This document shows, piece after piece, positions 27,203 to 56,424 of a stretch of DNA of 64,000 nt. The translations under genes and the position numbers were made by a program. Below the pieces are notes generated by a model. That model saw only the letters and a list, made by a program, of their open reading frames with translations, was not told the origin of the DNA and did no database searches. Source of the stretch: an uncultured Sphingomonadaceae bacterium. GTDB lineage: Bacteria > Pseudomonadota > Alphaproteobacteria > Sphingomonadales > Sphingomonadaceae. Position 1 is the first letter of the stretch. Each line of letters starts with the position of its first letter. The DNA is taken from positions 1,148,506 through 1,212,505 of the forward strand of contig CANMGU010000002.1 in NCBI GenBank assembly GCA_947497455.1. Direction: 5' to 3'.

Positions 27203-27574
27203 CTAGCAGGGATATTTCTTCTTCATAAAACCGTGAAATGCGGCCTTGACCTCCATATCACGCTGAGCGACCGGAATGGTTTTGAGATGGGCGATGAATT
27301 CTTTGCCATTCAACTTGCCTTTGCCCTTCGCTGGTGGGCAACTAGGAGGCGTTTTGCCAGCGGCACGCGCGGCCTGGATATCGCTGCGATAAGCGTTCGT
27401 CACCGTCTTCATTTCACTCATGACGGGCTTACGATGTTTGGAAAACATGGCGCCCATTCCAGCATTCATCAATTTGTCGGCTTTGGGGAGAAATTCGGAT
27501 ACGGGCATGGCTGATGCCGGGACTGCAATCGACAGCGACAAGATCATCGCAAGGCTCCGAATGGTTAGCGTCAT
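27203..27574 (-). CDS. Small exported protein of unknown function
   Basis: A 123-residue protein with a signal peptide (MTLTIRSLAMILSLSIAVPASA). The mature part is Lys/Ala-rich and carries two cysteines (SCPPAK and the C-terminal KKYPC), which may form a disulfide. The ATG at 27574 is chosen, preceded by GAAGGAGG at a spacing of about 7. That SD is buried in the descending arm of a terminator-like hairpin that ends within a few bases of the start codon (27571-27611). No family recognised. Confidence 0.7.
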   Translation of the reverse strand: MTLTIRSLAMILSLSIAVPASAMPVSEFLPKADKLMNAGMGAMFSKHRKPVMSEMKTVTNAYRSDIQAARAAGKTPPSCPPAKGKGKLNGKEFIAHLKTIPVAQRDMEVKAAFHGFMKKKYPC

Positions 27575-27611
27575 AAAAAAGGCCTCCTTCAATTTCTGAA
27601 GGAGGCCTTTT
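27571..27611 (-). terminator. Terminator hairpin overlapping an RBS and start codon
   Basis: Reading leftward, AAAAGGCCTCCTTC, a 7-base loop and GAAGGAGGCCTTTT form a perfect 14-bp stem (27611-27577), followed by TT and then the ATG of the next gene at 27574. It terminates the PEP-CTERM gene, and its 3' arm contains the Shine-Dalgarno GAAGGAGG of the gene at 27203-27574. It may act as attenuator and RBS sequestrator. Confidence 0.75.
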
Positions 27612-27702
27612 GTGATATTTTTTGTGAATATTAGGTGAATTACCTACCCAATACACTCATGATCTATTTGTTCTGCTAGTCGAGCAAACAATATCTGTTA
27701 AA

Positions 27703-28263
27703 TCAGGCGAAAGCGACTTTGACATTCGCTTTGCGACGACGGCGCATCGCACCACCGACCAATCCGAATCCACCGATCATCATTGCCCAGCTTGCTGGTT
27801 CGGGCACAGCACCAACGGATTCCAAGGTAATCCCAACTGATGTAAATGCAGTGTCTGGGTTGAACAGATTAACGCCGTCCGAAAGGTCCAATGTTACGTC
27901 GATAACACCATCAGCAGTCAGGGTTTGAAAATCGGCAAGGGTCAGAGCGAATGTTGACGAGAACTGATTGTCATCGAATGAGAATGCCGTCGTTGTATCC
28001 GCAGATTCAAGAGAAAGATTCCCGGTAAGCAAGCCCTCTATATCATAGTCCAAAGACTCAATTTGGGGGAAACCAAATGAATAGTCTCCACGTGCGGTAA
28101 TAGTAATTGACCCCGGTCCGGTAGGTGTACCCAATCCAGCAAAGCTATAGCTAAACAGTTGGCCAGCGCTGGTTTGTGCCTGGGTTTCCAGAACTGTGGT
28201 TGCATTTGCACTTGCAGGTAATGCAGCAGCTGTCAAAGCCGCCGCCATAATATATTTTTTCAT
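27703..28263 (-). CDS. PEP-CTERM sorting domain protein
   Basis: A 186-residue secreted protein. ATG 28263 (MKKYIMAAALTAAALPASANA) starts a signal peptide; the frame upstream has no RBS. The mature part is beta-rich (FSYSFAGLGTPTGPGSITIT) and lacks cysteines. The C-terminal anchor is VPEPASWAMMIGGFGLVGGAMRRRRK: the PEP motif, a hydrophobic helix and a basic cluster, the sorting signal recognised by exosortase. No exosortase is encoded in this window. The role is likely in surface or extracellular polymer-associated structures. Confidence 0.88.
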   Translation of the reverse strand: MKKYIMAAALTAAALPASANATTVLETQAQTSAGQLFSYSFAGLGTPTGPGSITITARGDYSFGFPQIESLDYDIEGLLTGNLSLESADTTTAFSFDDNQFSSTFALTLADFQTLTADGVIDVTLDLSDGVNLFNPDTAFTSVGITLESVGAVPEPASWAMMIGGFGLVGGAMRRRRKANVKVAFA

Positions 28264-28416: not shown

Positions 28417-30369
28417 TCAAGCGCCTTGGGGCTTGGGATCGCCAAATGGCCCTTTTCGCTTCTTGCCCGCTTTCGGTATCGATGTACCAATTGTCGGAAC
28501 CGAAGAGGGTTTGACGACATCGCCATCGGGGCGCTCGAACTTCCCATTTTCGACCAGCGAGTCAATTTCGTCGCCGGACAGGGTTTCATATTCAAGAAGC
28601 GCATTGGCAAGTAAATGCAACTGATCCTCATGTTTGGTCAGCACATCCTTCGCCCGATCATAGCCTGCGTCGACAATACCGCGAATTTCGCTGTCGATTT
28701 TCTTGGCGGTTTCATCTGACATATGAACGCGCTGGGACTGCGAATAGCCGAGGAAGGTTTCGCCTTGTTCCTCTTCATATTGCAATGGCCCCATTTCGTC
28801 CGACATGCCCCATTGCGTGACCATGTCACGTGCCAGCTTGGTCGCATATTGGATGTCGCCTGACGCACCGGAAGATACTTTGTCATAGCCGAAGATGATT
28901 TCCTCGGCGACACGGCCGCCCATCGATACCGCCATATTCGCGTGCATCTTGTCACGGTGATAGCTGTAACTGTCCCGCTCGGGTAGGCGCATGACCATGC
29001 CCAGTGCACGGCCGCGCGGAATGATGGTCGCCTTGTGGATCGGATCAGAGGCTGGCTCGTGCACCGCAACAATCGCATGACCGGCTTCGTGATAAGCGGT
29101 CATTTTCTTCTCATCCTCGGTCATCACCATGGATTTGCGCTCTGTACCCATCATGACCTTGTCTTTGGCGGTTTCAAACTCGTCCATAGCGACAAGACGC
29201 TTGCCGCGACGGGCAGCCATCAGCGCAGCTTCGTTGACAAGGTTTGCAAGGTCAGCACCAGAGAAACCCGGTGTGCCGCGCGCAATGGTGCGTGCGTTGA
29301 CATCAGGTGCCAATGGCACTTTCTTCATGTGCACTTCGAGAATCTTCTCACGGCCTTCAATATCGGGACGCGGAACGACAACTTGTCGGTCAAAGCGACC
29401 AGGACGCAAGAGCGCCGGGTCAAGAACGTCAGGACGGTTGGTCGCGGCGATGATGATGATACCTTCATTGGCCTCAAAACCATCCATCTCGACAAGAAGC
29501 TGGTTCAATGTCTGCTCACGCTCGTCATTGCCGTTGCCAAGGCCGGCACCACGATGGCGGCCGACTGCGTCAATTTCGTCGATGAATACGATACAAGGTG
29601 CGCTTTTCTTGGCTTGTTCAAACATATCGCGGACGCGGCTAGCACCGACACCTACGAACATTTCCACAAAGTCAGAACCTGAAATGGTGAAGAATGGCAC
29701 ACCGGCTTCACCCGCAATGGCCCGCGCCAAAAGCGTTTTACCGGTACCAGGTGAACCGACAAGCAGGGCGCCTTTCGGTATCTGTCCACCGAGTTTCGAA
29801 AAGCGGCTAGGGTTTTTCAGAAACTCAACGATTTCCTCAAGCTCTTCACGCGCTTCATCAATTCCGGCGACATCTTCGAACGTGACCTTGCCTTGCTTTT
29901 CGGTCAGCATTTTGGCCTTGGACTTGCCAAAGCCCATCGCACCGGAACCGCTACCCTTTTGCATCTGGCGCAGCACAAAGAATGCGATACCCAGAATGAG
30001 CAGGAAGGGCAGGGATTGGATCAGCAGATATTGCCAGATGCTCGGGCTTTCTTCGGCCTGACCGCTATATTCGACGCCTTTTTCGTCAAGCAGTTTGACC
30101 AGGCTTGGATCATTGCCAACAGGCGTAGTCGCGAACTTGTCACCATTGGTCAGCTCGCCGGTGATTTTATCAGGTGCAATTGCAACCGTCTTGACACTGC
30201 CCTCAGCAACTTTTGCACGGAAAGACGAATAGCTGATCGCATCACCAGAGTCCGCGCCCGCGCCTGCTCCAAACATGGAAACAGTCAGCAGGAGTGCGAC
30301 GATGACGCCGGCCCATATGAGCATGCTTTTCATCCACGGATTTTCCTTGGGATCCTGTTCGTCGTTCAT
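28417..30369 (-). CDS. ftsH: ATP-dependent zinc metalloprotease FtsH
   Basis: A 650-residue membrane-anchored AAA+ protease for quality control and regulated proteolysis at the inner membrane. It has two N-terminal transmembrane segments (about 12-30 and 110-130), Walker A GSPGTGKT, Walker [12 protein letters not shown], the second region of homology [20 protein letters not shown] and the zinc site HEAGH in [11 protein letters not shown] near residue 425. The C-terminus ends with a coiled-coil and lysine-rich tail. It follows tilS on the same strand, the usual tilS-ftsH arrangement, with a 156-bp gap that has a weak promoter. Confidence 0.97.
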
Positions 30370-55723: not shown

Positions 55724-56353
55724 TCATCGTCCACGGCGCCCTTTTCTTCGGGGATCGGTCCAATTGAACGCATTTTTGGCCACCGGAACGCCAAATTTTT
55801 GGTCAGAAAGCCGGATTGATGTCCGATTATTCTTCGAATCGAGTGATACCCAGCCATCAAGCCGCAAACCGGCAGGCGCGCCTGCTACCTTAGTGAAGAC
55901 CATGGTAATCACGCCATATTCCGGGCGTTTTGGATCCCGAACTTCGACGCTCAGCACATCTGGATTGCGAGTCGGGATGATTTTTCCATATTTGGACAAG
56001 TCGCGTTCGGGATTAAGCAGTGCACCCAAGGGACTGTTCCTGATCGGCCAGCGCTGAACCTGATTCACGTCATAATCGATCATCGTCAGGGCCTTGCCAT
56101 CACCAACAATCAGCAAATTGGCTTCCTTGCCATATTGAAAACGTATCCGGCCAGGCTGCTTTAACGTCAGTTTTCCGGGTAAAAGTTGTCCACTACGGTC
56201 GGTCTGCGTGAAATTGGCCGTCATGGTGGTCATTGCACGCAAGTGGGCGGAGATCGCATTTATATCATCCGTTGGGCTTTGTTGGGCCGTTGCCGGAATG
56301 CTGGCCGTCAGTGCCAAAGGCGCAGCGGCGAGCAGAAAAGCAAATCTCAACAT
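55724..56353 (-). CDS. lolA: Outer-membrane lipoprotein carrier protein LolA
   Basis: A 209-residue exported protein (signal peptide ending PATAQQ, about residue 24) with the LolA-type half-barrel: LRAMTTMTANFTQTDRSGQLLPGKLTLKQPGRIRFQY and VGDGKALTMIDYDVNQVQRWPI. It ferries lipoproteins from the inner to the outer membrane. The following ftsK gene is on the same strand but upstream, with a 71-bp gap. Confidence 0.9.
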   Translation of the reverse strand: MLRFAFLLAAAPLALTASIPATAQQSPTDDINAISAHLRAMTTMTANFTQTDRSGQLLPGKLTLKQPGRIRFQYGKEANLLIVGDGKALTMIDYDVNQVQRWPIRNSPLGALLNPERDLSKYGKIIPTRNPDVLSVEVRDPKRPEYGVITMVFTKVAGAPAGLRLDGWVSLDSKNNRTSIRLSDQKFGVPVAKNAFNWTDPRRKGRRGR

Positions 56354-56424
56354 ATTGAAAACTCCTGAAAAATTTTCTTGATAGCTAGCGCAGAGCGATT
56401 GAACATGACCTGAATTGCGGCTTC

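Follow-up and report, generated by a model that had tools for sequence, protein, structure and literature searches.

How is a gene translated when its only Shine-Dalgarno (SD) sequence lies inside the terminator hairpin of the gene before it? The question is raised by the gene for a small exported protein in the window, by which we mean the whole 64,000-nucleotide stretch of DNA analysed here, from an uncultured Sphingomonadaceae bacterium (Table 1). On the minus strand, the hairpin consists of the 5' arm AAAAGGCCTCCTTCA (27611-27597), the loop GAAAT (27596-27592) and the 3' arm TGAAGGAGGCCTTTT (27591-27577), after which come two more T and then the ATG at 27574; the sequence across the element reads ...TTCACCTAATATTCACAAAAAATATCACAAAAGGCCTCCTTCAGAAATTGAAGGAGGCCTTTTTTATGACG... 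An earlier note on this DNA had described a perfect 14-bp stem. The pairing is indeed perfect, but we count 15 pairs. Its observations that the T run passes straight into an ATG and that the descending arm holds the only ribosome-binding site of the gene both hold: the U-run of the stem abuts the start codon, and GAAGGAGG, in the 3' arm and 8 nt 5' of the ATG, is the sole SD. With its stable GC-rich stem, a U-run directly after it and a position behind a gene, the hairpin has the makeup of an intrinsic (Rho-independent) terminator. Folding of its 96-nt context yields -28.3 kcal/mol, where shuffled sequences average -13.96 (z = -4.7), and none of 200 shuffles equalled this value.

Table 1. Features of the hairpin locus and of the lolA operator in the window
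Feature	Position	Strand	Details
Intrinsic terminator hairpin and following U-run	27577..27611	-	15 bp stem, 5-nt loop
SD GAAGGAGG within the 3' arm	27583..27590	-	anti-SD duplex -12.4 kcal/mol
Gene for 123-aa exported Rap1a/Tai4-like protein, linked to ftsH across Sphingomonadaceae	27203..27574	-	
Predicted +1 of downstream gene, in 5' arm near loop	27597..27600	-	inferred: 11 nt from -11A (27600, usual spread to 27597)
Predicted -10 element CAAAAG	27607..27612	-	inferred -11A is the A at 27611, 17 nt after second TTCA
Operator, direct repeat TTCACCTAATATTCA (TTCA-N7-TTCA, 11-nt period)	27625..27639	-	second TTCA starts at 27628
PEP-CTERM gene between ftsH and operator	27703..28263	-	PF07589 E=9.7e-8
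ftsH	28417..30369	-	transcript ancestrally ended by the hairpin
Operator ATTCAGGTCATGTTCA upstream of lolA (55724-56353)	56400..56415	-	independent case of the same promoter geometry

The earlier note would have counted a true start of the downstream gene further in as a refutation, which is not the case. The signal peptides of 11 orthologues in the genus begin at the ATG or GTG directly after the U-run. Selection on the gene is strongly purifying: dN/dS is approximately 0.02-0.1 in most computable orthologue pairs, where dS is close to saturated, and reaches 0.35 with the divergent G023. From these two observations, we take the ATG at 27574 as the true start. An in-frame TTG at 27592, in the 3' arm, was ruled out as an alternative since it is out of frame in several relatives. 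The protein has a signal peptide, a helical body and conserved Cys. Its AlphaFold2 model has a mean pLDDT of 82, and every one of the best seven Foldseek matches is a Rap1a/Tai4 type VI amidase immunity protein, although these matches are weak (E >= 0.08). The corresponding Pfam match, PF18602, falls below the cut-off for this protein (E 0.14) and reaches 2e-4 in the best family member. Genus g2 has the Rap1a/Tai4-like gene in two tandem copies.

A protein profile search found homologues in 93 of 401 genomes of the family, in 30 of its 91 genera, and mostly immediately behind ftsH. The earlier note had suggested looking for the overlap of terminator and SD in relatives, and there it is found: a terminator-like hairpin with the SD in its 3' arm abuts the start codon in at least eight Sphingomonadaceae genera (g1, g3, g25, g66, g83, g106, g107 and g118), with stems that are unrelated in sequence (for example TCGGGGAGGGTTTTTCGTATG, ATCGGGAGGGCGTTTTTTATG and CAGGGACGGAGCCTTTTTTTATG). 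Our own-genome analyses drew on a 400-kb sample, and the control set of 423 genes came from 20 stretches of the same genome together with the window. Within this set, an SD inside a terminator-like 3' arm occurs only here and at one doubtful TTG start. Since at least eight genera have the overlap in unrelated stems, and at most one doubtful case occurs among the 422 other genes, the overlap is not a chance event. Nor is it essential for the gene, because many family members carry the gene without the hairpin, either fused into an operon with ftsH or, as in genus g71, behind a leader that is very short.

Within the genus, the 3' arm has undergone 4 changes and the 5' arm 11; the lower rate of change in the 3' arm is marginal (binomial p ~0.05 for 13 against 4), and C-to-U changes in the 5' arm are tolerated anyway as G-U pairs. 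In genera whose leaders have no terminator-like U-run (L083, L105, L119, L124 and L130), the SD seems to be stem-paired too, and this could possibly represent a purely translational version of the arrangement.

Which message the hairpin ends is answered by the relatives. According to the earlier note, one structure could both end the PEP-CTERM transcript and mask the SD. Conservation across genera supports the dual use, but the ancestral target is ftsH instead of the PEP-CTERM gene. In gene-bearing relatives within the genus, ftsH lies directly upstream, with the hairpin at most ~100 nt past its stop codon, and the PEP-CTERM gene is missing between the two. Judging by this gene order, the PEP-CTERM gene is an insertion peculiar to this genome, and the hairpin is ancestrally the ftsH terminator. 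Gene-less genomes G015, G024 and G027 keep the same hairpin behind ftsH, and in G010 (L046) an intact hairpin is followed by a decayed remnant of the gene, with a degraded operator. Other gene-less species have different ftsH terminators, facing a convergent gene. A related PEP-CTERM gene (L037) follows ftsH in G014, a genome without the Rap1a-like gene.

Upstream of the stem lies a direct repeat, the operator, which is held in a fixed register with the hairpin and the start codon. The spacing is exactly 11 nt in 24 of the 33 TTCA pairs of family leaders. In 23 hairpin leaders, the start codon comes 47-56 nt (mean 53, sd 2) after the second TTCA, and the apex of the hairpin falls at approximately index 29-37, counted from the second TTCA, in nearly all hairpin leaders. 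The operator-to-start register is unchanged in the present genome although the PEP-CTERM gene has been inserted. Index 17 is an A in 23 of 26 family leaders, those without a hairpin included. Reading this A as the -11A of a -10 element would put the +1 at index 28. In genus g71 (L095, L096, L098, L099, L101 and L106) and at own-genome locus L209, the ATG stands exactly at index 28; this fits a +1 at that base, and we regard these mRNAs as candidate leaderless messages. The -10 hexamers are weak outside the -11A, with T rare at index 21. A pyrimidine occupies index 28 in many species, and the actual +1 may therefore be 1-3 nt further downstream; a start 5-6 nt upstream would leave the SD partly paired. 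A sigma-70 consensus scan gave no match near the start, as expected of a promoter that is presumed to be activator-dependent, and our literature search found no start-site map for Sphingomonadales.

Presence of the operator follows presence of the gene. Within the genus, it occurs in 12 of 12 gene-bearing and 0 of 18 gene-less genomes, counts that are not phylogenetically independent. In G015, G024 and G027, CTCA-N7-CTCA stands in the place of the operator, with the lolA operators intact. The operator decays after gene loss and the terminator stays, which indicates that the two functions are separable.

To account for these features, we propose that the element is a composite of terminator, promoter and ribosome-binding site, a reading to which we give a probability of roughly 0.66. 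RNA polymerase that has transcribed ftsH, or the inserted PEP-CTERM gene, would run into the intrinsic terminator. A transcript that reads through would fold the same hairpin and hide the SD, so that leaked mRNA would be silent twice over. The downstream gene would be served by its own promoter, probably activated rather than repressed through the OmpR-class-like repeat TTCA-N7-TTCA shortly before the stem. The -10 element of this promoter would cover the foot of the 5' arm, with transcription beginning near the apex. In the mRNA made in this way, the 3' arm would serve as 5' UTR, its SD accessible, and the U-run would form the spacer between SD and start codon. As this mRNA would lack most of the 5' arm, neither the terminator nor the SD mask could form. 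The predicted mean probability that the SD is unpaired is 0.018 in read-through RNA (SD ~98% paired), as opposed to 0.35 in RNA beginning at index 28. The earlier note had left two routes to expression, either read-through mRNA with the hairpin opened or a promoter inside the stem; the second is favoured by the operator upstream, by the -10 element at the foot of the 5' arm and by a predicted +1 near the apex. A constitutive promoter wholly within the stem was rejected, given that loop and arm sequences are not conserved and the operator lies upstream of the stem.

The read-through route would make the hairpin a double lock, with expression only from ftsH/PEP-CTERM mRNA once some factor or condition opens it. 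The conserved overlap of hairpin and SD is compatible with this, and repC of pT181 offers a precedent (PMC5435934). We nevertheless hold it to be improbable: the perfect stem is highly stable (-24 to -28 kcal/mol), there is a conserved promoter besides, and unsystematic inspection of the ~50-nt leaders brought no conserved antiterminator pairing to notice. An RNA thermometer is not favoured either, the stem being perfect and GC-rich.

It is also conceivable that the arrangement has no regulatory meaning, and that a gene abutting an ordinary ftsH terminator has simply borrowed its purine-rich arm as an SD. Arms of the GGAGGCC type are frequent in terminators, and the hairpin persists in the three gene-less genomes and beside the G010 pseudogene remnant. 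Such neutral compaction seems unlikely to us, however, when the overlap recurs in at least eight genera with differing stems, the register of operator, hairpin and start is fixed, and the control set holds just one other candidate start, the doubtful TTG. Even less probable, to the point of being remote, is processing, whereby an RNase would cut the read-through mRNA in the loop and the 3' half, with its SD freed, would be translated. The loop is A/U-rich in several species, but neither its length nor its sequence is conserved, and the geometry of operator and -11A favours a primary start.

The promoter on which the composite reading depends has a counterpart upstream of lolA. Among 30 lolA leaders, 22 have the TTCA repeat, every one of them with A at index 17; the other eight, as judged by eye, have TTAA-N7-TTCA. 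CtrA is a conceivable regulator: its motif is TTAA-N7-TTAA, whose spacing the repeat shares, and some first half-sites of the repeat are likewise TTAA. In the own genome, a signal-peptide or lipoprotein gene follows 12 of 17 sites that have a pyrimidine and A (YA) at 16-17, compared with 0 of 30 unselected TTCA-N7-TTCA sites (Fisher p ~2e-7). We rely on this comparison and do not count the 17 matches against 1 reversed control as enrichment, because the parent pattern is itself commoner than its reverse (146 against 31). The exported or envelope genes after YA sites (56400-56415 and own-genome L204, L205, L207-L211, L213, L217 and L218) include lolA, DegP-like and M48-like proteases, lipoproteins, a SIMPL-like protein and others, the names at own-genome sites being read from N-terminal sequences and not database assignments. 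Because this promoter is found in front of lolA and of some ten further genes for exported proteins, TTCA-N7-TTCA with pyrimidine-A at 16-17 probably marks an undescribed envelope regulon of Sphingomonadaceae.

The nearest described regulon is that of CenKR in Rhodobacter sphaeroides, where a repeat of 11-bp period, TGA-N8-TGA, precedes envelope genes (PMC9275681). The period and the envelope genes are common to both systems, but the operator here matches the CenR consensus in reverse complement. Read in the direction of the gene it is TCA-N8-TCA, with no TGA-N8-TGA co-directional with transcription, and most CenR sites are oriented the opposite way relative to the gene. Given this opposite orientation, and as CenKR is reported absent from Sphingomonadales (PMC9275681), we do not accept CenR as the regulator.

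Parts of the arrangement have precedents. In T4, a hairpin hides the ribosome-binding sites of I-TevI, I-TevII, I-TevIII, segB, e and soc in transcripts from upstream promoters, and for I-TevI and its relatives transcription from an own promoter starts within the structure, leaving the site free (PMC2988022). As in the I-TevI and e leaders, the SD studied here is predicted to be paired in upstream-initiated RNA. Three things set the present case apart from T4: the hairpin doubles as the intrinsic terminator of the preceding gene, the gene sits on a chromosome, and its promoter has a two-component-like direct repeat where T4 has a late promoter. For pT181 repC, the downstream ribosome-binding site lies in the 3' half of an intrinsic terminator, and one hairpin controls both transcription and translation (PMC5435934). 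Our SD likewise sits in the 3' half of a terminator that precedes its gene, but this terminator belongs to the upstream gene, control appears to lie in the choice of promoter, and unsystematic inspection of the ~50-nt leaders brought neither antisense RNA nor antiterminator to notice. In Tn10 and IS200, 5' terminators or RNA structures block expression from impinging external transcripts (cited in PMC2965389); the present gene is not part of a mobile element, and the upstream transcript is that of a conserved neighbour, ftsH. The joining of SD masking, an SD in a terminator arm and protection from outside transcription in one operator-tied chromosomal element appears new.

On balance, we lean towards seeing here a conserved three-in-one element of ~35 bp that stops the message coming from upstream, insulates the gene in transcription as well as in translation and provides its 5' UTR, together with a TTCA-N7-TTCA envelope regulon. 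If true, this would be a compact insulator on the chromosome: one set of bases would act as terminator, as promoter start site and as ribosome-binding site, and would be kept across genera despite turnover of the stem sequence. The model predicts that the downstream protein is never made from ftsH read-through. It would also expose a promoter with TTCA-N7-TTCA that had gone unnoticed, and with it a probable regulon of the cell envelope (lolA, lipoproteins and two proteases, one DegP-like and one M48-like) in a group reported to be without CenKR.
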